A stretch of DNA of 64,000 nucleotides. Source: Gautieria morchelliformis (Eukaryota > Basidiomycota > Agaricomycetes > Gomphales > Gomphaceae). This document shows, one piece after another, positions 1,225 through 53,867 of the stretch. The stretch's first letter is position 1. Each line of letters begins with the position of its first letter. Below the pieces are notes generated by a model. The model was not told the DNA's origin. It did not search any database and saw only the letters and a list, made by a program, of their open reading frames with translations. The position numbers and the translations under genes were made by a program. Where the stretch lies: assembly GCA_015179125.1 (NCBI GenBank), contig WHVA01000079.1, positions 186,001 through 250,000 on the forward strand, given 5' to 3'.

Positions 1225-4024
1225 TCACAATTTGGCACGAGGCGTACGCTTTGTCTCCTTGACAATCTTCTCTAGCCCCACGTACTGGTAGTATTGATTA
1301 AACGCCTCTGGGTTCGCCACTGTGCCACTTGGCTTGACGGTTGACCCGGAAACAATCTGCTTCACTGCGATTTCAATCTTCTGGAAAACGGGAATCAGTC
1401 GCGCAAATCACCGTGAGGCTCTCCGAACAAACCTTGTTGTTCACCGTGTACTAGACATTGATGTTCAGGGAGAAGAACGAAGAGAAGCAGACTTGGCACG
1501 TACGGGTATCTCTGTAACCTCGAATACATAGCTCGGCTCATGTCGCTTGCTCAGCGCCGTCCTGATAGCCATCCTTATCTCTCCCTCGAGCGCACGCGTG
1601 AGCTGGTAGCCCGGTCGCATCTTGATAAACAACAGGACGCGCTCATCCATATCATGGGGACGCCGCTGCCCCACGCATAGGGCATCATCAATCTGACTAC
1701 TGAACCGTTCCAGCACCCCGTAGATCTCTGACGAGCCAAACCGAACACCACTGGGATTCAGCACCCCGTCGCTGCACGTCCCCGTATGTCAGAAACATCT
1801 ACCGCCGACACGAGGGACACACCTCCTCCCGAGTATCTTGAGCCCTTTGGTCACCGGATTCACGACCATAAAGTCGCCCTGGGCCCACACCCCAGGGTAC
1901 ACGGAGAAATACGCAGACTGGAATTTCTTCCCGTCCTTATCGTTCCAAAAATACAACGGTAATGACGGGTGCGCGCGGGTACACACGAGCTCGCCAGGCG
2001 TTCCGGTGTGCTCGATGTTCCGTCCCTCTGGGTCAAAAACTTCCACCTTCATCCCGAGGGCCTTGGCCTGCATCTCTATGGGAAACCTACCATTGACTGT
2101 CCGTGACATAGCTATTCATGAACGGCTTACCCCCGGCGTACACAGGCTTGACGGGAACCCCGGTCACGACTGACTTGCATATGAGGTCTCAGCTGCATTG
2201 CGAGGTACTTGACTCACATGCACAGCATACGTCAGTACCTCCCGAACCAACAAGGAGATAGATATATGGCGGGAAGACGTCGTAGATCCAACGATACATT
2301 GGGGCTGTCAAGACCGCGCCAGTCACGAAAATAGCTCTAAGTGAAGGGAACGGTGCGATATCCACTAACGTTTACGAAATATCAGGCATAGTATTGGCGT
2401 AATGTAGATAACGACATACAAGGTTTAATTCCTGCGCCCTGAAGTTCAGCACAGTAACGTGGCCCGATTCCCAGGACGGATACACTAAGTGAGGTATTAA
2501 CAATGGCCCAATGTGAAGGAAACGCTCCTACCCTTGGTCGCTTGCCAGTTTCAAAAATGTACCCACATCCGGATAGAAGGGGGATCCATCGTACAGAAAG
2601 GCACGAGATCCGTTCACAAGGGTGCCGACGACTTAATCATATCAGTTAATCGTAACCAACCAGCCCAGCGCGCGTGTGATCATTACCCGAAGCAAACATC
2701 ATCCATCCCGTCTAGTGCCCCCAGCTGGTGAGCGAAGGAGTATTGCGAAGCCAAAACATACCGTAGTATACTGCAAGATACTGTTCATCAGGTGAGTAAT
2801 AGGAAACTTCGCGCTGCAAGGGCAATTACCAGTCATCTTGACTAGTATTGAATCCATAGGACGCATTGTTTAATGCTTGTATCAACGTTCCCTATGCATC
2901 TGTTGAAAGGGAGATTTGTGAGTGTGTATATAAGACGCACCCCTGCGGAATGTACAATGCATTTGGGCGGGCCACTGGTCCCAGAGGAATACAGGATCCA
3001 AAACGGGTGATTAAATGGTAACTGCTCAAAGACAAGTTCTCCGTTCTTTCCAGGGGCGAGGAAATCATCCAGGGTCATGCTGAAAGGCATGCATAACTGG
3101 CGTACGATAGACCGACACATATGACATACCTGTGAGGGATGATGGCGTCTGGATATTTCCCGGTAACGGTACTCGGAATGAGGATCACATTCTCTAACCC
3201 ATGTCCAGAAGACAAGTCATTCCCCAATTCCTCAATTTTAGGGACTAGGCAGATTTTTTTCCCTGCATACATGACCTCCGTATCCACAAACAAGAGTTTG
3301 GGCGTCACTTGGCGATACCGGTCGAGAATGCCTGATGCCCCCATGTCGGGAGCTGTGCTCGAGAACATAGCACCCACGGTTGCAGCCGCTAGAGCTACGA
3401 CTAAGGCGTGAATCGAATTGGTGATGACCGCTGATTTATTGTGCGCCGACGCATGAGCATGACATCTGAGAGCCTGCGGAAAAACGTACCAGCAATTCTG
3501 TCATGAGGCTTCACGCCATGGGCTCGCATGGCATTGCTCATGTCACGAACGAGCCCTCGCAGCTCCCTCTGTGTGTAATGCTGGAGAGAACCTGTCTCGC
3601 GGGCTGCAGTGACTGCGATGCTGTCGCCATTGCGCTTGATGATGTTCTCTGCATAGTTGAGTCTAGCGCCAGGAAAAAATTCGGGGACTTCATTTTGAGG
3701 CCGATCTACAATAATCTAGGAACGCTATGGTGATGGACGACCAAAGACATGACAACATACCTTACTGGGCGGGACACTGTAGATGACACCACCAAATTCC
3801 CAGAGGTCCTTCCAAAAGTCCCAATTCTCCACCGAGTACTGGTGCAGGTCGTCATAGCCCTCTGTGTGCGAGTTGGGTTCGATCTCGTGATAACGACATA
3901 AACACGCACTTAGTTGCAGACCATGCTTTAGGTTCACATAGCGTCGAAAGTGTTCCACACGGGAGAAGCGTGCATCATCCCCAGGCTTCCATAACAGCTC
4001 AGGCTGTTCACCGTACGCAGTCAT
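1225..4024 (-). CDS. AACS: Acetoacetyl-CoA synthetase (ANL superfamily)
   Basis: This gene activates acetoacetate to acetoacetyl-CoA with ATP, feeding sterol and fatty-acid synthesis in the cytosol. The start ATG at 4024 gives [15 protein letters not shown], the usual family N-terminus. The AMP-binding P-loop reads [17 protein letters not shown] (near 2960-3000). Downstream are [11 protein letters not shown] (near 2590), [11 protein letters not shown] and VGSGGTDVC (near 2250-2340), and [14 protein letters not shown] (near 1740). The last exon has YTVNNK joined to [10 protein letters not shown], which supplies the C-terminal catalytic lysine region. I could join the coding blocks through GT-AG introns without a frameshift, so the gene looks intact. 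It ends TPRAKL then TGA at 1225-1227. It is divergent from the GRF zinc-finger gene across 385 bp. Confidence 0.93.
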
Positions 4025-39716: not shown

Positions 39717-40617
39717 CATGTAGGGGTTGTTCGGTCCACTTCGGATTTCATGGTCTCATTGCTCTGCCTACGTTATTTGCTCCATTGTGAATTCCTCGCA
39801 TTTTCAACTGCTGCCACATCCCTCTTTGTATCCAGCATCACACGGATTGTAATCGAAGCCTAACTGAATCGGACTGGTCGGATATGCCAACGTTCCCCGC
39901 GTCAACTCCGGAAGATTCGCAACCCACGCGAGATGTATATGTAAGCGAATACGTAAGATTTCCATGGCACCCGCACTCTGGTGACTACCGACTCATGAGC
40001 TAACCTGTTCAACACTTCATAAGCTCTCATAATCTCATTAGGCCGCTTCAATGGAGCACTCGAAGTATCATACTGAGTCATGGTGGGAGCGCGAACTATG
40101 ATCATCAATCCATCCGGCCGAATATACTGCGAGCTGTCGCGGACATCTGCTCTACAGAAATATGCGGATCTTTGTTGTCTGTTGCTGGTAGGTCCCTCGG
40201 TAGTAAGTGCCAGCACGACTAAAGAAGTTAAGCATGTGCAAGTAACGACAATACTCAATACTCATCGTGATGTGGCGCACGCTCACTGGGCAAGATCCAA
40301 CATATGAGAGGATCTATCCAACACAAGCGTCATCATTCAAACTGTCCGCTTGGAGTCTATCCTCTTCACACGGCGAACGGACAACGCTTCGAGGCAGCGC
40401 ACGGTTCTTCACACGGCGAGCTCAAGCGGCGGCCGACTGGCGCTTGGAGGCCCTCAGGCCCCTCAGGCACGGGGGCATGGTTAATGGGCCCGATTCGGAT
40501 GATGTCATAGGACCTTATTTTTGGCGAGCCAAGCTCGGCGAGATCTACAGCGACGATTGCGCATTCAACTCCAATCAAGATCCCTGTGAGTACATCGGCG
40601 AAACCAGAAAAAACTTA
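39717..40617. other. Unassigned region between ERT1-like gene and first transposon
   Basis: No gene is supported. A plus-strand frame from about 40,267 runs on into the adjacent element, and a minus-strand frame covers 40,366-40,578. Neither shows a known domain. It could hold the tail of a gene broken by the insertion at 40,618, but nothing proves it. Confidence 0.4.
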
Positions 40618-41492
40618 GAGCTCGTTCGGCGGCGGAATTGTAATTCGCAATTAGAAAACGCAATGTCAATTCGGGTGGTGTGGTATTGTGATCTCGTTTG
40701 CTCAGTTTCAGCCCGCCGAACGCGACACTCAAAATGCGTGATTTTGCTCAATTTCACCGAAGGCAGCCAAACACTCCAAACTGAAATTCTGTCACATGAC
40801 ACAGAATTTTTCCTCTGCACCGCTGCCACCGCACCACTTCAAAGAAAGCATGGCGCCAGTACATTCCCAATTGAGACGGGGCACGTCGGAGAGGCTCCAG
40901 AAACACCGAAAGGCCGCTTTGTTGGTGCTTACTGGTGCCCTTGCCAATACGGCAACATTCTATCTTGTAATGTGTCTTGAGCTAACTAGTAGATTAGAAA
41001 CCAGTAGTATAGAATTGAAAAGGTACTTATGCGCTGCCAGCACGTCTTACAGGGCCCTATTTTCTTGGCTACTGCAGGACTGAACTTCATTGCCAATGCC
41101 GTGACAACGAGACTCCAAGTGGTGGCCTTCCAGCCTGATTCCGCTTGAGTACCACCCTCGCGTGCTTGGAGGAGTACAGCGACGAGCTCGACCTCCTCTT
41201 CAGCTGTCCAGTCAATGCATTCCTTTTTTGGCTTGTCCGATCTGGGAACCGCCATGACGTAGTGCGTAGAGCGACCTGGTGTAATGATGGAAGGCGATTT
41301 GGTTTTCAAAATAACGAGGAATTCTGGTCAGAACCAGAATTCCAACTTACCTATGAAAATTGCAGTCGCAGAAGCCGAAATTGTGTCAGCCGAACGGTCA
41401 CACAATCTCACACAATTTTCGGAATCATCTGGAATCAACGTGATCTCATTTTGGGTGTGTGATTCCATACGATTCCATAGTCGAACGGGCTC
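40618..41492 (-). mobile_element. Non-autonomous PIF/Harbinger element (875 bp, internally deleted)
   Basis: Ends are GAGCTCGTTCGGC at the left and, read inward from the right, GAGCCCGTTCGAC. Direct TTA duplications flank it (40615-40617 and 41493-41495), the 3-bp target type of PIF/Harbinger elements. About 518 bp of its right side is near-identical, inverted, to the left end of the 3.7-kb element at 49,713. About 357 bp of its left side matches the right end of that element, also inverted. It retains the first exon of the Myb/SANT-like gene but no transposase. It is therefore a deletion derivative moved in trans. Confidence 0.92.
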
Positions 41493-41961
41493 TTATAAGC
41501 ACCCTATAACCCTATAACACTTTATAAGCTATGTTACCTTGCTCGGCAAGGTCTTCTCCCAGGTGCAAAATGCCGCCAGGATTCGTGACATGTTCATGTT
41601 CATGTTTGTATACCTAATATCCGTCTTCAGCGCTTCTGTCTGGTATATCCCGGCGAGCAATCCGCGGCGATGTCCCATATCAACCCACAACCGAGAGCGT
41701 CCGAGCTACCGGGAGAAGTCTATGGACCTGGACTGCTACGGGCGCTGTCGCCGAGGCGGCAAGATAACTTTATGGCACATGTCCATACTGAGGGCTGTAG
41801 GTGCATATGGTGCGGGTCTATCCAAAAGGTCTATAGACCTTTTCCCAGTACCATGACCTTCATTCCAAAGTGTTCTGGATACAGGTGAACAGGGAAAAAC
41901 TTTTGGACAAGAAACTGCTCCCTCCATTCAGTTGCAGTCAGGGATACAGGTTCAACACTTC
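41493..41961. other. Spacer between two elements
   Basis: These 469 bases carry no recognisable coding sequence. Open frames here have no domain, and no repeat ends are visible. Confidence 0.4.
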
Positions 41962-43129
41962 TGGTGATGCTCTGGGCTTGGGCTCCAGCCTGAGCTGGGC
42001 CCAGCCAAGCCTGGTTTGAGCCTGAGCCTAGCCCGACCCAGCCCAGTTTGAGCCACCATATGGGCTGGGCTTCTAAGTTGTGGAAGCCCAGGCCCTGGGA
42101 TTGAGCCTGGGCTTTGCGACACTTATGGTACATCTTTGCCTTGATTCGGACGGCAACTGTATATACACCAAACAAAGTTATTTCCCTCAATCTCCCTCCT
42201 GCCCATTGTAGATCATAAGAATCACCGAGGAAGTGAAGTGGCGCCGTGGTACATATAGGCAACACCAGCAGGACAGGTGTTATGGGAAGGGCTGGGGCGG
42301 TTGTGAGTGCCTGAGGACCCTACTGAATATTTGATTGTTGAGATATTTGGGATCCAGTTAGTTCGTGCATGGGTATCTCCTCAACAACTAGATGATACCC
42401 CATTCTAATAGTGCCCCAACTATTCATTCAGGCTACTTGCTACATTATCTCTGTTTCTCATCAACCTCATCTCCACAACAGCTTGATCCTTTCATGCTCT
42501 GTGCTCATCCAGGACCATGGCTGGGTGGTTGCTGATCGAAACACACACATCCCCAAAGAACCATGTAGAAAACACAGATGAGGCCACTACATGCACCATA
42601 TCTTATTCTGGCACAGCCACAACGAAATCCACCTGCGGTGTGGTAAAGACGCAGGTTCTTTATGCTCTGCCTATCCCTTAGTGGGGACAAAGCTCCTGTT
42701 AAAAGTTTATGAACATATTCGGTGACTGAATAGACTCACTGAAAATTCATTTTCATCTGCAGGGATTATCATCAGCCTCATGCACCAAAGTCACCTTAAG
42801 TGTGATATCATTGAAGCTCTTCAATGCCTCAAATGTATGTTGCGACATGAACTAATTTTCCGCAAACCCGAGCCATGCACCAGAACCGAGATGGCTTTGG
42901 AGGATGAAGTGGTAGAGTCTTATGGAAGCAATGAAGGTGACATAACATACTATGGCTTAACCATAAAGTTTTTTTTGCATTTGTTTGTTTATAGGTGAAG
43001 CCTGGACCAAGCCTGACCTAGCCCAAGCCTGACCTACTGGGCTGGACTCAAGGCTTCATTGAGCCTGAGCCTGCTAAAGCCCAACCCAAGCCTGGGCTTT
43101 CTGAGCCCAGCCCAGCCCGAGCATCACTA
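41962..43129 (+). mobile_element. Degenerate hAT-superfamily element
   Basis: The left end TGGTGATGCTC and the inward-read right end TAGTGATGCTC form terminal inverted repeats. The flanking 8-mers AACACTTC (41954-41961) and AACGCTTC (43130-43137) are an 8-bp target duplication with one substitution, the hAT length. Both subterminal regions are dense in AGCCCAGGCTTGGGC-like words on both strands. Internally, 42,745-42,850 encodes ENSFSSAGIIISLMHQSH followed by IIEALQCLKC, a recognisable remnant of the hAT C-terminal dimerisation domain. No complete transposase frame remains. Confidence 0.78.
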
Positions 43130-43969
43130 AACGCTTCTCATTCTGTATCCTAACCCCTCCAATCTACTCTCACTTCTGCAGATACAAAGGATTGGCCGCA
43201 TATGTGTTCTTGGTGATCCTCTAAACAAGGTGACCAGATGCATGTATGAGACTGCAGCAGTTCAATTACAGAATAGGGATTATGGGCAGAGGGCATTGAC
43301 CTGAATCCTTCTTTGGCATGGGCCATGGTGACTTCACGGGGCATGGCCAATATGCCCCCTTTGGAGGCAGTATCTGGTTTGTGGTATGTTATGAGAATAT
43401 AACTTCGGCAGCATCTAGAAACATGGACAGGCTAATTGAGGTGTCACAGCTCCCATAAGTGCTATGAAGCTTGCAGTATTAATGATACTACTGCCCTTAT
43501 TGAGGCCCTTCTTGGGTTCTACAGGATTGTTGTGCATAGCGATTATACTATGCTTACATCCCCACCAGACACTTGTCAGGTTGATCAACATGGTGAGATC
43601 CCAGATGCCTTCTTTGGTGTTGAGAGCTGTAGAATCATGATTCCTTGGAAAATGTGTCTTCTGAATGGGGCAGTGATAAGAAAGCTCAACTTACCTGCAT
43701 TGTTAAACTACAAGGAAGTTAGATGGCCATCTAGCCACATGTATTATTCAGCGATACTTACCATGGCCATCTCTTCTCTGACATCAGTCATTAAGGTCTT
43801 CTCATCACCATTTCCGATCACCCTAGTATTCCAGTTTTTTTTTCCCTCTAATCACGCATCATTACACAATGCTTTGATAATAAATGACAATTCCAGCCAG
43901 AATTGAGCAAGGTTGCTGCGAGCAATGCTCAGCGCTTCTAGTAATATATGTCAGGTATATAATTATTAT
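43130..43969. other. Unassigned stretch within the transposon region
   Basis: A plus-strand frame from about 43,436 to 43,906 is open for about 156 codons but has no domain I recognise. It is probably decayed mobile DNA. Confidence 0.35.
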
Positions 43970-44039
43970 ATATGACCTTACGAGGCCTCGTAGACCACTC
44001 TTGTTTCACACAAGGTTATGTAATCTCTCAGGGAGCGCC

Positions 44040-44235
44040 GATAAGGCTTACAGGGCGTTGTACTGCGCTTGCAACCATTTCCCGTACGGTAAGCCTTATC
44101 ACCAAGTCCCAATTTGTTGATAAGCCTTACAGGACCGTGTAGGCACTCGGAACCCTTTGGACGTATGGTAACGCTGGTCACCGCGTAAATGGGGTTGGAA
44201 GGCCATGTATGCGTTACCGTACCTCCAAAGGGTTC
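44040..44235. repeat. Two stem-loop inverted repeats
   Basis: GATAAGGCTTAC (44040-44051) pairs perfectly with GTAAGCCTTATC (44089-44100). A second pair, GAACCCTTTGG plus GGTAACGC (about 44150-44174), matches GCGTTACC plus CCAAAGGGTTC (about 44211-44235) in reverse complement. They lie in the presumed subterminal zone of the Plavaka-type element. Confidence 0.75.
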
Positions 44236-44336
44236 TGGGCCAAGATAGGTATGGTTCTTTGTTCCAGACATGGAATGTGGAATATTAAAATATATATCCG
44301 CTCATAGGTATTGTACAGCAATCAACTACTCGTCAT

Positions 44337-45861
44337 TCAATCAAGCTCTTCTAACGGCACTGTCGGGTGGTTTGTAGCATTCTGGAGAGCTGCCCGTTTG
44401 GCCGCTTTCTGGGCTTTCAGCAACGCTAGTGAGTCCATCATTTCGTTCTTGTCACCTGACTGCTCTTCACCCGGGAATAGGTGACTGCGCATGTTGACGG
44501 TCAGCCAGTATAACACGGTGGCATATTTCATACCTATTCCACCAGAGCAGTAAGTCTTGCACCTCTTCCTCAAAGTCAGGGTCTTCTAAAAATTGCACAA
44601 GGTGCCAGAAAAACTGGGTTGTGTCGAATGTACCACCAACTTTCTGATTCGTCTCCCCCGATGACAACGCGAACTGTGTCTGATGGAAACATGGTGAATA
44701 CCTAATATGTACAATGTGAGTTCACTAATCACATACCTGAGTCGCGACATATGCCAGAGATTGGCGCGTGACTTCTTGCATCTCGGCCAGCCGCGCGTTG
44801 CAGTAGTGTGTGTGCCGTGACACGCCCTGAGCTTTGTCCCAACTACTGGGACCGGTATATATCAATTTGTAAGCCTATGAAGAGGTCAATCTATTAGCCC
44901 CATAACCTTGAAACTGTTATGAACTCACATAAAGTAGCAGTTCTCCTCGGAGTAGACCCTTGGCCAAGTCCGCAGGGTCATACTCGCTCTTTGGGTAGAA
45001 GAATCGTGGCCAGGCGGAGGCTGAGTCCAGATTAGGGGTTGCTCGCAGTTTCTCTTTGACGCTGCAGGTGCGTGGTATCACTTACTGGCTGTCGATTATA
45101 GCAACTCACCTGTCATCTGTCCAATCCAGGGTGGTAGGACATAGGAGCTCTCCAGTGAGTTCATTGCGAAAACCTCGCAGGGTCTTGGTCTTGCAATCCA
45201 GCGTGGGGAGAGCAAGGGAATCAGGATAGTATAAGCGCAGCATGTCCACAACCGCCTATTTCAGACTGTTAGTGTCAGCTTGGCGTGCGGAGTTCTGGCC
45301 TTCCTTGAGCTGAAAGGGTCATGCAGTTTACTTTGTGTGGTGTGTACTCCTGATGTGCACGTACCTCTCTAAATAACTCCTTGAAATCAGCTACAGGCGT
45401 GTCGGTAATATACTCTCCGAGGGCCAGGTTATGTTTGACTAGAAGCTCATAGGATGTGAGGATGTGTTTTTGGCTGTCATTGCAAGCGGGTGAGTCAGTC
45501 TGCGGCATAATGGAACACTAACCTTTCTGAAAATGCGTCACAGGCCCCTGGTACAATGGACCTGAGGTACGTGTTGATGATAGACTTGGGGTCTGTGTAT
45601 GTGTCAACCACACGCGTACAAGTCCTCCCCCACTCGCGCCATGGTGTAGTAGGGTTTGTCCGGCACCATGATTGTTAGAGGTGGTTATAAGGTGAGCGGC
45701 ATGTACCTTCTCTTGCGACCGGTCGGGCTGACATCCTCATCGTCAATAGGGGATCCGACGCATTTGTTGGCACGGGTGTCAGCCCTGGGGGACGAAGACC
45801 GGGAGGGTGGTGAGGATGAAGGCGGCAGCGAGGATGAAGCAGAGACAAATGGTGCAGGCAT
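44337..45861 (-). CDS. DUF6698 domain protein, transposon-associated
   Basis: The ATG at 45861 opens MPAPFVSASSSLPPSSSPPS, a Ser/Pro-rich head. Spliced exons give PWREWGRTCTRVVDTYTDPK, QKHILTSYELLVKHNLALGE, CKTKTLRGFRNELTGELLCP, DPADLAKGLLRGELLLYAYK, VSRHTHYCNARLAEMQEVTR, QFALSSGETNQKVGGTFD and LEDPDFEEEVQDLLLWWN. This is the DUF6698 layout, a domain common in repetitive DNA of Agaricomycetes. After an intron it ends SHLFPGEEQSG and a basic helix, with stop at 44337-44339. I found GT-AG junctions preserving frame throughout, so it appears intact. Its function is unknown. It lies divergent from a broken Plavaka transposase, so it may be an accessory transposon gene. Confidence 0.75.
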
Positions 45862-47732
45862 GGGAATAAGTCCGGGTTAGATACTGGCAGGTATGTTCCA
45901 AGCCATCAACAGTCATTTTATAACTGGACTCACGTGACTGTCAAACATGACCGTCGACTAGTTCAACTAGATCGGGGGTGCAAAAATAGATGCTGGTGAG
46001 ACAATTCTCCTACCTGCCGCTCGTGACCTTGCTGAATAGTGAGCTGACCTCAACTAGGTTTGCCTGGTATTCAGTGCATGTATCATGTTGAGAGTGGGAG
46101 AATATAAGAGCAAGCCATTGATCTCATGTTGGCTCAAGAAGTTCGAGATGGCGTATGCCCGAAGCTGACTACGCCCGGCTCTGTGACAGCAGAGTTGGGC
46201 TGGGCGTGTTGTCACACTAATTAGGCCTAATTACGAAGTGGGCCTGCGCTGGCATTCAAGGTGACTGCGATCCTGTGTGCTCCTGTGCTGATACCTGCGC
46301 ATGCAGTTGGTTTGCATGTGGACTAGGAGGCTCACATTCTGTGTGATACTCCTGATTATGGGAGGTTCAGGGTGGCAATGCGACTGTGGCCACAGGGTTG
46401 CAACAGAGAAGGGGCTGTCTCTCCACCAGAATGGGTGCGCAACATATGCGGGTCACCTAAGTGACACAATTGCCACAGCGCAGCATGTCCTGCGCCAACA
46501 GGATAGGCCCTTGAAAAGGCGTCGCATATGAAGCCCGCCATGTTCCATTCAAGAGGGCCATGCTAGCTCTGAAGTAGTGGGGGGGTCCACTGACATGTGG
46601 CCAGCGAGCATCTCACAGGTGAGCTGGTCAGGATCCTTACCTGGCATGGTAAAGATGGTAGTGCTAATGGCATTGTAGGACATTTCAAGCAATGAAGGAC
46701 ACTGCACTCAAACCCATGACTTGGGTTTTAGCACGATGGACTCTGTGGGCCATGATTCTCAGGTACAGATTGACACTGAGGGCACACGTCCCAGACAGAC
46801 GACTAGACTGCCTCACAGGTATTGTGATCTCCTTCCAGTCCCACCAGCCCCGCCGCCCCCAGCCCCTGTCACAGATCACCGCCTCCCTCGTGTGATCTTG
46901 TGGGTTTGGGAAAGGGTTTTTACAGCCCTGAATGTGGTTGGCCTGTGGAGGGAGTACATTGGTCGACCCTCGTACGATCCAGACTCTGCGTTGCCTATGG
47001 ATGAATGGGTGCCGCAAGTGAATACTTCATCAGGTGCCACCGAGTCAAGCCATCCCACTGCTCGCACGGCTTTCTGGCCATTCCCAAACATCTCCCAATT
47101 TCTACTTGGTGACTGGTATATTAACTCTCTTCAAGGGAACGTTCCGGAAGGGATTTTGACAATCTCATCCATGTCCTTCAGGACAAACGGTTTGACCCAG
47201 GAGAACTAGAGCATTTCTCACAGGAGCACAAACGGCTTCCGCAGGAGCCAGGATGCAAACTGGAACAAGTCATTGCTCCACTGATGTTTTGGTCTGACTC
47301 GACACATCTGACTAGTTTTGGCACCGCCAAACTATGGCCGATTTACATGTTCTTTGGCTCTCAAACCAAATACTCACGGAGCAAACCAAGTGCACACCTC
47401 TCTCACCATGTGGCATACATTCCATCGGTATGTCCCTATCTGTATGCATCTTCACTGACTAACAGCTTTTTAGCTTCCCGACTCAATCCAGGACTTCATT
47501 CAAAACCTGACGGGAGGGCATGCGGCCCGCCCCCCATTGCTGACCCACTGCCGGCGTGAACTCATGCATGCTATCTGGCGACTGCTACTGGACAACAAAT
47601 TTGTGGATGCATACAAACATGGCATTGTGATCAAGTGTGCAGATGGCATCACTCGGCGGGTCTACCCCAGGATGTTTACTTATTCGGCAGATTATCCTGA
47701 AAAGCAAGTACTGTGCATGCACAGGATGATCC

Positions 47733-48461
47733 TAGTGTTGTTTATAGTTCAGTTCAGTTCAATTCAGTTCACAAACCGGTTCATGGTTTTGGGTCATGAC
47801 CCAGCTCCAGCTCAGCTCATGTACCAGTTCAGCTCATGAACCGGTCCTGAGCCAGTTCTGAACCAGTTCAATACCGGTTTAACTCTAAATGATTTATTTT
47901 TTAATTCTACTAATATTTGGCTACTTTAAGGTCATATTCATTTATTTTTGACGTCTAACTAACTAAATTAAAAGGGGAATGACTCCTGCAAGGGCAGGAG
48001 TCATTGTGTGGAGTGAGAAAACAGCGCGGCCTTATGTAGACTGCGCTGTTTGTTGATATTTGCAAGTCATGTGACCTGCAATGGTCAACGAAACAGCGAC
48101 ATTCGCTGGTCACGTGACTTGAAAACAGCGCGGTCTTTATAAGGCTGCACTGTTTGCTCACTTCACACAACGACTCCTGCCCTTGCAGGAGTCATTCCCC
48201 TTTTTATTTAGTTAGTTAGATGTCAAAAATAAATAAATATGACCTTAAAGTAGCCAAATATTAGTAGAATTAAAAAATAAATCATTTAGATATATAATAG
48301 TATTGAACCGGTTCAGAACCGGTTCATGATTGATTCAGACCGATCTAAGGAATGGAGAGGATGCCAGTTCCAGGTTCGGTTCAAATACCAGTTCAGCTCA
48401 ATGAACTGAACTGGAACTGAACTGGTATGGATCAATTCAAGCTGAACTGTAAACAACACTA
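47733..48461. mobile_element. Non-autonomous hAT-type element (729 bp)
   Basis: The ends are perfect 12-bp inverted repeats TAGTGTTGTTTA and TAAACAACACTA, flanked by a perfect 8-bp duplication GATGATCC (47725-47732 and 48462-48469), diagnostic of hAT-type insertion. Subterminal zones are dense with CAGTTCAG, GAACCGGTTC and related words on both strands. There is no transposase. It interrupts the Plavaka transposase remnant and itself contains a palindromic element. Confidence 0.92.
47885..48289. mobile_element. Palindromic foldback element nested in the hAT element
   Basis: Arms of about 130 bp (47885 to about 48015, and about 48160 to 48289) start CTAAATGATTTATTTTTTAA and are inverted copies with only about five mismatches. 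Each arm ends in a smaller palindrome, GACTCCTGCAAGGGCAGGAG. The 145-bp centre carries AAACAGCGCGG on both sides. The structure is a foldback or MITE. No clear target duplication is visible. Confidence 0.82.
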
Positions 48462-49956
48462 GATGATCCGAGCAGCTCTCAGTATCATCCATATTGGTAT
48501 GCTCGCATCATCGGGGTGTACCACACGCATGTCATCTATGAACAAGCCAATGGCATGCTTGCTCCCCCTCAGGTCATGCATTTCCTTTGGGTCCGATGGT
48601 TTGGGAAGGATACGACATATCGTTCTGGTCCCCAAGCCCGTCGACTGGACCGAATCGGATTCGTCACTGAAACTGATGACACGGAACCCTTTGGATTCCT
48701 AGATCCTGCCAACATCATCCGAGCAGTCCATCTCATACCTGCTTTTGCACACGGGAAGACTGATGAACTGCTGTCAGCACCTTCAATTGCGCATGAAGGT
48801 GACAATATGCGCCATGAGGAATGGCAGTATTACTATGTAAACAGGTAAATATTCCATTTACATGCTATTCAACTGTCGTTCTCTAATGAAGGTATACAGA
48901 TGGGCTGACCACAACATGCTCATGCGATTCCTTGGCGGAGGGATTGGCCATTCTATTCACTATGCTACGGAGACCAGCGCGAGTCGTCCTGAGGAGAGCG
49001 CCGATCTGGATGAACCGATGGATCCCACATACAACAGCCCTAGGAACCACACTCTTGGTGACGCAGAAGACATGGTGATGGCTGAGTTGGACGAAGAATT
49101 GGAGGGTGGTGACTTGGAGTCCGATGCTCTGTCAGACAGCGAGGATGAAGAGGTTCAAGATGATGAGGATGACGATGAGGCCGGAGATGAGGGGGAAGAC
49201 GGTGGAGATGAGTATGATTCCGCTTGAGCTCCTGAGCTGCTGCCACAGACCCTCCGAGCCCGAGTTGCAGGCATTGAACGACCGGCGAGGGTTACTTCCA
49301 CCATGTAAGTTGGATTGAGGCTGACTGACCACTTACGAGGCCTTATAATCCTTACTCCCCACTTACAATGGTGTACAATGTTTATATTGTGTTGTAATCA
49401 CCTTAAACCCTGCCTGTACATTATGGGGCATTGTAAGGCTTACATCGGCCTCGTACGGCTATTACAAGTGAGTATGAGGTGCTCGCAGGCTTACCAAAGC
49501 GGCAAGCGCTTATACAGTGGTATTAGGGAATTCTGGTTTCGCCTATGTAACACAGCTGCACTATGGTACCTTTGAAGGTCATCCCTCGTCCTGATACTCC
49601 ATGAAGCCAGTCTGGACACCAAGGTTCATATCATTTCTGGCCTCTGGAGTCGAGTGGATGTTACCCAGTACACTAGACATCCAAGTGCTGCATTTATAGT
49701 TGAAGGTACTAAGAGCCCGTTCAACTACAGAATCGTATGGAATCACACACCCAAAATGAGATAATGTTGATTCCAGATGATTCCAAAAATTGTGTGAGAT
49801 TGTGTGACTGTTTGGCTGACACAATTTCGGAAATTGCCAACTTCTGCCATTGCAATTTTCATAGGTAAGTTGGAATTCTGGTTCTGACCAGAATTCCTCG
49901 TTATTTTGAAAACCGAATCGCCTTCTGTCATTACACCAGCTCGCTCTACGCACATC

Positions 49957-51062
49957 ATGGCGGTTCCCAGATCGGACAAGCCAAAAAAGGAAAGCGTTGA
50001 CTGGACAGCTGAAGAGGAGGCCAAGCTCGCTGTACTCCTCCAAGCACACGAGGGTGGTACTCAAGCGGAATCGGGCTGGAAGGCCACCACTTGGAGTCTT
50101 GTTGTCACTGCATTGGCAACGAAGTTCAGTCCTGCAGTAGCCAAGAAAATAGGGCCCTGTAAGACGTGCTCGCAGCGCGTAAGTGCCTTTTCAATTCTAT
50201 ACTACTGGTTTCTAATCTAGTAGTTAGCTCAAGAAACATTACAAGATAGTCAAAACATTGCGTGAGCAATCTGGGTTTGGATGGAACGAGGGCAAGAAGC
50301 TTGTCACAGCGTCGAAAGAGGTGTGGGATGCGTATATCCTGGTGAGTACATGTGCCGCGTATCTATTCTAATTGCTTATTCTATCACAGGCCCACCCAAA
50401 GGCAAAGCCCTTCTGCAGAAGGAGCTTCCCCCTGTTTGCACAGATGGCGCACCTGGTTGATGGTGTTATTGCCACTGGTACAGGTGTTTTCAGGAGTAGT
50501 TCTCCTATTGTAGGTGATATAGATGAGGGAGATGATGACAATGAAGAATTAGTGGACTCGGGGCATGATGCGCCGGCAGATGAAGATGGGAATAAAAGTA
50601 GCGACGATGAAAGTGATGATAAGGTGTGAACCGTTCTTTTATTTCACTCGTACGCAGTCCTTCTTACACTATGAAGGTTACACCACGCCACAAATCCAAA
50701 AAACGCAAGGCTGCCACTGCGATGAAGCTGGCATGCAAATGGGTTGGCAAAAGTGGTACTGATGCGATACTTTCCATGAGTACTGCTGTCACCAACATGG
50801 CAGCAGCCTTGAGTAATCAAGGTAATAGTTCTACTACCTTTGTGCATCCCCGGTATGTAAGACAAAAGCCATGCAAACGGTAGAGGATGAAGAGGAAGGG
50901 CTCACAGACATTGAGGCAGTCACCGTGGCCCAGATTTTCATGTGCAATACAGCTGCTGCAGACATGTATCTGGCAATGCACAATAAGCCCAGGTGGCAGT
51001 TGTGGTTGGAGGCTCAGATACATGAAGAAATAGGAACACGGGCAGCTTTATTTGGTATATAG
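49957..51062 (+). CDS. Myb/SANT-like DNA-binding protein of the Harbinger element
   Basis: The ATG at 49957 opens MAVPRSDKPKKESVDWTAEE. A Myb/SANT-like domain follows (WTAEEEAKLAVLLQA, GWKATTWSLVVTAL, CSQR joined by an intron to LKKHYKIVKTLREQSGFGW, EVWDAYILAHPKAKPFCRR), the Myb_DNA-bind_3 type. Then come an acidic middle (GDIDEGDDDNEELVDSGHD), a basic patch (HKSKKRKAATAMKLACKWVG) and a C-terminal helix ending ALFGI with TAG at 51060-51062. Splicing can be completed in frame. In PIF/Harbinger elements this protein binds the transposase and DNA near the ends and imports the complex into the nucleus. Confidence 0.85.
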
Positions 51063-51078
51063 TCATATCTGAGTATCC

Positions 51079-52204
51079 CTATGCACGTCGATGGTCCCCT
51101 GTCTCATAGTTCAACCACATGGCTTCAGCAATAGCATCACATATATGTGCTGCCCTTGTGGATTCTGCTCGTGTGATGCCTACATGAGGACCTTCCCCCC
51201 AATCCCATTCCATATCATCATCAATGTCATGGGTGCGGATAAAGTTATGCAAGATGCAAAGAGCAGAGATGATATGACCCTGCACTGCAATTGGGAACTC
51301 ATTTGCAAATCGTAGCATGGCAAATCGTTTGTGAGATACCCCAAAAATCCTTTCAACCACATTTCGTGCCTGTGCGTGTCGCAGATTGAACAGTTCCTTG
51401 GGATTTCCAGATCTATGAACTGTGATAAATATTGGAGATAATAAGCCTATGGTTCTACAACTCACTTGTGCTGACTAGCCTCCCGTAGCGAACACCTCAA
51501 TATGGGACAGGCAATGCATCACATGAGGCAAACCCAGCATCAGCAAGGTAGTACTTCCCAGCTGGTATCTTCAGGTCATGGCACCGTGCATCCTCAAAGA
51601 TTGCACCATCATATGCACTACCCTCCCAGCCAGCAAGGACATAGCAAAAATGCATGTCAAATGTACATGCTGCAAGCACATTTTGGGTAACCCCCCTTTC
51701 CTGTTCTGGTAACGTGCCTTGTCCTCACTGGGTGGATGAACATCCAGATGTGTCCCATCAATTGCACCTAGTGTGTCCTGAAAGTATGGAAAGAGCTTTG
51801 GGTTGCTCTCAATCTCTTCAGCAAGTGGTGTGTTCTCATCAGAGAGTTGGACATAGGTATTATAGAATGGGGTCGTGGTGAGAGCTTCAAGTACTCTGTG
51901 AAAGCATCTAGGGACATGATCAAAACAGGTAATCACATAAAAATAGTAAACTCAATAACTTTGATATGGTGTCTCCACTTCGCTGAAAGTGTTTGGCAAG
52001 TTTCCTATTAGACAGGTTGGTTACGGCTGTGTACAAGAAAATAGCAACTTGTTCCTCCAAGCAAATGTGGCAGGTATGGCCCAGTAGACTTTTGCTGGCA
52101 AGCTCCAAGCACAACGCTTGAAATACATGTTTATGCATGCCAAGTTGGTCCTTCATGCATTGTGGATTGCCATCCAGAAGTTCCTTCACCCAGCCCCATC
52201 CTGA
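51079..52204 (-). pseudogene. PIF/Harbinger DDE transposase, disabled
   Basis: The N-terminal block is WGWVKELLDGNPQCMKDQLG and LSNRKLAKHFQRSGDTIS. The DDE domain shows LGAIDGTHLDVHPP (first Asp), WEGSAYDGAIFEDARCHDL (second Asp) and LRHAQARNVVERIFGVSHKR (Glu). Lesions: a run of six G (51691-51696) shifts the frame between YQNRKGG and VTQNVLAACTFD; a TGA (51497-51499) stands where relatives have Arg in VPYRGVRY, consistent with CGA to TGA; and the 5' end is cut by the element at 52205. It is therefore not functional as it stands. The stop is at 51079-51081. Confidence 0.88.
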
Positions 52205-53031
52205 CAGTAAGATAGAAGTCGTTTAAATGCGGCACCTTTACATAAGCACAGGACCGTCCGACGGTGAGCTCAATAAAACTGGAAGGCAGAATTTTTTTGC
52301 CAAACTGCTTCCTAGAGTCTCTTTGGGTTATGCATAGCTACAACTTCTAGGAGAGACTTGGGAAATATCTATATTATTGGACAAGATATATGATGTTCTA
52401 AGTGTGACACAAGAAAAATTCCAAATTATTTTTTCGATGTCCTAGAGTGATTCTACACAATGTCAGTATTTGGACCACCAGAATTTGGTGGTCACGTGAT
52501 GGATGACGTGATGTATTTGTCAGCTGTGGCTCGAAGGAAAGACATTGCGCTGCCACTCCAAGGCCTACCCATCATAATAGTATATTTGAACAGTCTGAGC
52601 CATGGACATGGGACAAAAATCTAAAAATAAGGCTTCTTGACTCCACACTCTCAAATCTGCATACCGAAGGGTGAAGGCCGCCATCACGATTGCAGATGAT
52701 TCAGAGGATTCAGATAATGAGTACATACTTTACATTAAGGAGCACACTTCACTTCCAGCTGAAGAAGGGGATACTGCTTCTGGACAACTTTCAGTGCTTA
52801 GAGATTATATTATTGCATGGCATTCCACAGCTATCGTATTTCACTTCCAAAAATTATATCCTAGTTTGGCAAGGCACTATAAAAAGAGAGTCTATTTAGT
52901 CTGGTTCACTGAAATGCTGTCTCAACTAAGGCTTTTTTTTTTTTTTCACCAAATCGAAGATTTGGCGCATCACGTGACATAGGTGCCCGCTTACATAAAG
53001 GTGTCACATTTAAGTGACTTCTATCTTACTG
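52205..53031. mobile_element. Inverted-repeat element nested in the Harbinger element (827 bp)
   Basis: The left end reads CAGTAAGATAGAAGTC, then TTAAATGCGGCACCTTTA. The right end read inward is the same with few changes (CAGTAAGATAGAAGTC, then TTAAATGTGACACCTTTA), giving terminal repeats of about 43 bp. The interior has a short acidic open frame (DDSEDSDNEYILYIKE, near 52,695) and CACGTG motifs. The insertion falls just upstream of the first recognisable transposase codons. No clean target duplication is seen. Confidence 0.82.
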
Positions 53032-53414
53032 AATTATGGAGCGGTTTTTATCTAAGTACCTTTTTTGATAGAATGTTGCCATATTGGCAAGGGCACCGGT
53101 AAGCACCAACAAAGCGGCCTTTCGGTGTTTCTGGAGCCTTTCCGACGTGCCCCGTCTCAATTGGGAATGTACTGGCGCCATTGCTTTCTTCGAAGTGGTG
53201 CAGTGGCAGCGGTGCAGAGGAAAAATTCTGTGTCACATGACAGAATTTCAGTTTGGAGTGTTTGGCTGCCTTCGGTGAAATTGAGCAAAATCACGCATTT
53301 TGAGTGTCGCGTTCGGCAGGCTGAAACTGAGCAAACGAGATCACAATACCGCACCACCCGAATTGACATTGCGTTTTCTAATTGCAAATTACAATTCCAC
53401 CGCCGAACAAGCTC

Positions 53415-53867
53415 TAAAAGACAGCTGTCCATTCATGTAGCTTACAGTAACAAACTTTTGGGCAATGTTATTTTTGACATACGATAGCTATAGCAGCTGT
53501 GTTTAAATATGGGATGCCCGGCTGGTTCTGGACAGAAGTTTATACTCCAAGGAACGGCTCACAGAGCGGCCATACATATATGTATTGACAACACTCCAAT
53601 ATAACTATTAGGGTTATTCAGGTCCGGTTTTAGCAGCCAGTCCATTATGGGGATGGAAGCCAGCTGAGAACATCCAAGTAAGAAGTGCAGGGGTTGGCAA
53701 GGAATTAATTGGCGACAGAGCGGTGGGCCCAGCCTTGGGAACGGTTATGGAAGCGACAATGTAGAGAAACGATGCCGCGTTAAGTAGGATAGCTGACGGA
53801 GCATTGATAGGGTTTAAAGGTTTAAGTCTATTAGTAGGATTGCGATGGTTAATTACAATGATAAGAC
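53415..53867. other. Spacer between Harbinger element and next repeat element
   Basis: About 450 bases without supported coding potential. A minus-strand frame overlapping 53,614-53,889 has no domain. Confidence 0.4.

Follow-up and report, generated by a model that had tools for sequence, protein, structure and literature searches.

The two related transposable elements in the window (a 64,000-nucleotide stretch of Gautieria morchelliformis DNA, contig WHVA01000079.1, positions 186,001 to 250,000) belong to one family of cut-and-paste transposons that duplicates 3 bp of its target. With a probability of roughly 0.8, we propose that the short form is a deletion joined at the word GATAG, which most likely happened a single time, in an earlier full-length member, probably one other than the long copy in the window; the interior between two GATAG words would have been lost during break repair, for which abortive repair of the gap left by excision is the most likely route, and transposase from intact relatives would then have moved the short form to at least two places. 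The features of the window, counted from its first letter, are as follows.

40618..41492, minus strand: short element, class A, 875 bp; both family ends kept, interior lost and with it the DDE part of the transposase gene
40615..40617, no strand: TTA target duplication of the short element, low-coordinate side
41493..41495, no strand: TTA target duplication of the short element, high-coordinate side
40960..40964, minus strand: GATAG deletion junction of the short element (CTATC on the plus strand)
49713..53414, plus strand: long copy, a PIF/Harbinger-type element of about 2.9 kb with a nested 817-bp insertion
49710..49712, no strand: TAA target duplication, left of the long copy
53415..53417, no strand: TAA target duplication, right of the long copy
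50245..50249, plus strand: GATAG, left breakpoint word of the long copy
53067..53071, plus strand: GATAG, right breakpoint word of the long copy
52210..53026, no strand: nested element of 817 bp from a different family; its terminal inverted repeats are imperfect and its duplication is TA
49957..51062, plus strand: first gene, of Myb/SANT-like type; it contains introns, and its start and splicing are predicted from the sequence
51082..53181, minus strand: transposase gene, DDE_Tnp_4; extent taken from matches to the copy C336

The coordinates, 3-bp duplications, opposite orientation and shared ends of the two elements are as the sequence-only reading had given them, and both target duplications are TAA when read in element direction. 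With the short element turned to element orientation, BLASTN aligns its bases 1-533 with bases 1-537 of the long copy at 92% identity, and its bases 529-875 with bases 3355-3702 at 96%; GATAG (short bases 529-533) is common to both pieces. Base-level alignment thereby agrees with the earlier placing of the GATAG junction in the short element and of both breakpoint words in the long one.

The long copy had been described as a single element of 3,702 bp. Its span and its TAA duplication stand, but 817 bp of it (bases 2498-3314) are a separately repeated element flanked by TA at 52208-52209 and 53027-53028, and the remainder amounts to about 2,885 bp. The terminal inverted repeats of the nested element match at 32 of the first 38 bases, its family is highly repeated (the copy count is a lower bound, 40 having been scored of 185 candidates), and the uninterrupted site is found in all 11 other extracted full copies. 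It fits the Tc1/mariner type, judged by its TA duplication only. The Myb/SANT and DDE_Tnp_4 genes of the long copy lie on opposite strands and converge. The first gene contains a match to Pfam Myb_DNA-bind_3 (PF12776) at 50228-50341 (E 7.1e-9), and DDE_Tnp_4 (PF13359) is matched in two exon pieces above the Pfam cut-off (E 2.1e-8 and 1e-6). Frameshifts and the nested insertion disrupt the transposase gene, whose matches are split over shifted frames. This copy also lacks a 36-bp stretch that a 13-base probe detects in 10 of the 11 other full copies, the one without an exact match to the probe being C840. A shortened G run, which shifts the transposase frame, was considered as a trait of every copy and rejected, as 10 of the 11 other extracted full copies have the longer run (C80 is not readable there owing to an inversion); nor is it private to the window copy, because a partial copy on C237 also has the shorter run. 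Elsewhere in the window, at 47733-48461, we read a hAT-like foldback element with ends TAGTGTTGTTTA inside a gene-like stretch; its 8-bp GATGATCC duplication lies at 47725-47732 and 48462-48469.

Comparison with the 122-Mb assembly (1,113 contigs) placed the left-end pattern at 44 places and the right-end pattern at 44 places, both with at most three mismatches, a setting that misses older copies. The 26 extracted copies are those with both ends among the loci taken; partial or interrupted copies (C655, C237, three on C1, C915, C203, the second on C528, C485, C449, C482, C337, C226, C450 and others) are omitted from the duplication counts and trees, and C300 and C390, fetched later, are absent from the trees. 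The full copies other than that in the window measure 2,880-2,941 bp. A matching 3-bp duplication flanks 25 of the 26 extracted copies, and all 23 that remain after removal of three with shared flanks (C405, C528a and C1107, likewise removed from the target counts and split-end trees). The 23 targets with distinct flanks are TAA (10), TTA (8), TGA (3) and TCA (2).

Several members have a history of their own. A full-length copy at C80:56278-59203 carries a 677-bp internal inversion over the middle of the transposase gene, with its ends and TAA duplication intact. The full copies C1107 and C168 have 600 bp of identical left flank and right flanks without a match, and C1107 is the sole exception to the matching duplication among the 26; this pattern reflects either exchange between copies or an assembly join. 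Three full copies, C396, C405 and C528, have common flanks on both sides of one TAA duplication, and a fourth, truncated copy matches the first 12 bases shown of their right flank; these were copied as part of longer duplicated segments or are alleles, and did not spread by transposition. Older relatives on C260 and C471 have 76-83% identity to the ends, the one on C260 spanning about 790 bp.

On its predicted proteins and its ends, the family belongs to the PIF/Harbinger superfamily (PHIS) in the wide sense: a DDE_Tnp_4 transposase, a second gene of Myb/SANT type, 3-bp duplications and terminal inverted repeats (which in C336 agree at 20 of the first 25 bases) are all present, and the earlier PIF/Harbinger label holds at that breadth. 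The TWA duplication, listed as a trait of the narrow-sense PIF/Harbinger group in the part of the NuwaII report available to us (PMC4482050), describes 18 of the 23 targets (TAA or TTA), the other five being TGA or TCA, and the family does not fit the narrow group on this trait. The rice element mPing has also been tested with TCA and TGA duplications, according to the portion of that study consulted (PMC4561436), and the target may thus be insufficient by itself to assign the group. The same part of the NuwaII report (PHIS; Han et al. 2015, PMC4482050) describes that group, reported there in two basidiomycetes, as having a TNA target preceded by C and followed by G, a Myb/SANT gene and a DDE transposase gene, all of which resemble our family: T-N-A is found at 23 of 23 targets, the preceding C at 16, the following G at 14 and both at 8 (p 5e-9 for the preceding-C and following-G counts combined). 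It differs in that most NuwaII ends start with GG, whereas ours start with GA (GAGC in most copies), and in that the autonomous candidates have a mean consensus of about 4.7 kb, against about 2.9 kb here. As the GG start holds in most NuwaII families rather than all, GA ends do not exclude membership.

The family has given rise to three deletion forms, each with its own junction. The class A (GATAG) junction, searched as a 23-base pattern with at most three mismatches, occurs at two places, the window and C304:20759-21643. The class B junction, with a 3-bp overlap, occurs at 20 places, of which ten are whole extracted copies of 943-954 bp; C300 is shortened to 834 bp by a further internal loss, C449, C482, C541, C217 and C671 were read as partial, C226 was read at the left end only, and C201, C284 and C937 were counted by junction only. 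At C201, C226, C482 and C937 a distance of about 4.4 to 6.2 kb separates the class B end patterns; if the ends are paired as assumed, other elements are probably inserted there. The class C junction, with a 2-bp overlap, occurs at four places: two copies of 798 bp and the 489-bp copy C390 were read, and C337:205868 was counted by junction only. C390 has kept an unbroken 187 bp of the left end, 103 bp from the interior and 197 bp of the right end, with TAA on both sides.

That the short element arose by internal deletion at a 5-bp microhomology, as first proposed, is well supported. Random deletion of a full copy would leave an overlap of at least 5 bp with P about 0.004-0.005 (0.0049), and the three junctions overlap by 5, 3 and 2 bp, where a combined overlap of at least 10 bp would arise by chance with P about 0.0009; overlap sizes are thus larger than chance would give. 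The junction sequence cannot reveal the repair pathway, and replication slippage or template switching without excision, which differs from gap repair in pathway only, would probably leave much the same trace, since both routes can produce short overlaps and junctions alone do not separate them. What weighs against slippage is indirect: in the part of the MtPH study at hand, a deletion series from the same kind of element in Medicago truncatula is interpreted as abortive gap repair (Grzebelus et al. 2007, PMC2213677), and we consider slippage rather unlikely here.

Later transposition of the shortened form, also claimed from the window, is well supported too: class A lies at two places with unrelated flanks, each with its own 3-bp duplication. 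The C304 copy measures 885 bp, and its site is empty in all 40 scored copies of its high-copy host repeat, at 97-99% identity end to end (40 scored of 1,222 candidates). An empty site of the window short copy was not found in a search with its low-coordinate flank, whose 600 bp occur once in the genome. Other members show the same kind of site: that of the full copy C336 is empty at 40 of 40 scored places with 100% identity (40 scored of 441 candidates), and for the class B copy on C659 the left flank of C561 contains a related site that lacks the element and has one TAA only. C336 adjoins a reading frame that we read as resembling a Helitron helicase. As the short form keeps both ends, transposase from intact relatives could move it. 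Transposase exon blocks are open in 3 of the 12 full copies (C336, which served as the guide, C501 and C315), and these intact-looking copies could be active. We infer that the short form was mobilised in trans, and that deletion came first and movement later.

The common origin of the two class A copies rests on their junction, and it is conceivable that one pair of GATAG words was used in two independent deletions. The copies are 3.3% apart, and the window copy has a 10-bp loss that the C304 copy does not. They have no private base in common and are left unpaired in the best tree; the tree that pairs them is nevertheless accepted (p-AU 0.298 with both ends, 0.448 left, 0.588 right), and the same exact pair of breakpoints would seldom be used twice without a hot spot. 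We hold two separate deletions to be improbable and retain a single deletion as the likely origin of class A.

The sequence-only reading had taken the long copy in the window for the traceable parent of the short one. The long copy has both ends and both GATAG words, and its nested insertion, lying inside the deleted stretch, would not show in the short copy. Both words are, however, in place in 10 of the 11 other extracted full copies (the right word of C522 has no exact match), and they therefore single out no parent. The left end of the short copy is 92% identical to that of the long copy and 95% to those of several others, with lower values for some older copies (C522 91%, C840 89%); the long copy has 11 private sites, against a single site shared by the long and short copies of the window and by no other. 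In trees of both ends (26 copies, 737 columns), grouping these two copies is rejected by the AU test (p-AU 0.0034) and the KH test (0.027), while the SH test leaves the grouping standing (p 0.0815); for the long copy grouped with the two class A copies, the values are AU 0.0004 and SH 0.054. The split-end trees (23 copies) give, for the long copy as partner, AU 0.0068 and 0.0030 and SH 0.0881 and 0.066 at the left end, and no grouping is rejected from the right end by itself (p-AU 0.504 and 0.592). Any tree would be blurred if copies had exchanged sequence. The claim of parentage is thus unsupported, rejected by the AU test and disfavoured by left-end identity, with the SH test and the right end undecided. 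From the tree tests, the left-end identity and the widespread GATAG words, the long copy is most likely a cousin of the short one and probably not its parent; direct descent, hidden by later mutations and exchange, appears very improbable.

The short element had further been seen as the birth of a MITE-like family. Class A is present at two places, at 875 and 885 bp, with the transposase domain absent and both ends kept. These two known copies compare with 20 and 4 places for the other two junctions, and the birth of a family from the GATAG form is not supported. MITEs are usually a few hundred base pairs long, and classes A, B and C are larger.

Class B, the most numerous form, has one junction common to all ten whole copies, which differs by a single base in C842 and C371. 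The left ends of five young copies (C447, C486, C113, C177 and C231) resemble those of young full-length copies, and the left ends of the five older copies do not. The arrangement of class B as one clade was tried and rejected with both ends together (p-AU 0.0004, SH 0.022) and with the left end (p-AU 0.0002, SH 0.015); the right end alone does not reject it (p-AU 0.208). One junction with later exchange of ends and the same deletion occurring twice would both explain this pattern. Tentatively, class B may be a MITE renewed by exchange, its younger copies having the old junction and a left end from a recently active full-length lineage, a reading that we find possible though somewhat doubtful.

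That MITEs arise by internal deletion is already known from series in Medicago and rice, as the parts of those reports consulted describe (PMC2213677, PMC10288884). A close parallel is MtPH, with PIF/Harbinger-like full elements and a series of internal-deletion derivatives, ten elements of 776-905 bp regarded as a possibly emerging MITE family, and, as here, a mosaic derivative, an internal inversion, a nested insertion and empty sites taken as proof of mobility; its host is a plant, and the portion of the report considered here makes no mention of microhomology at the junctions (PMC2213677). mPing, derived from Ping in rice, is likewise short and non-autonomous, comes from a PIF/Harbinger element with two genes and is moved by proteins supplied from elsewhere, but in the sections available it is described as 430 bp long and present in hundreds of copies, compared with 875-885 bp and two found copies for class A (PMC10288884). 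Among the matches listed for element and fungal deletions, microhomology, MITEs and NuwaII, we recognised no paper that seemed to treat this element family.

The family offers a compact fungal example of one cut-and-paste transposon giving rise to several shortened forms by separate short-overlap deletions, and it cautions that adjacent copies should not be assumed to be parent and offspring before the whole genome has been compared. If the renewal of class B is true, a non-autonomous family would keep pace with the source of its transposase via conversion during gap repair.
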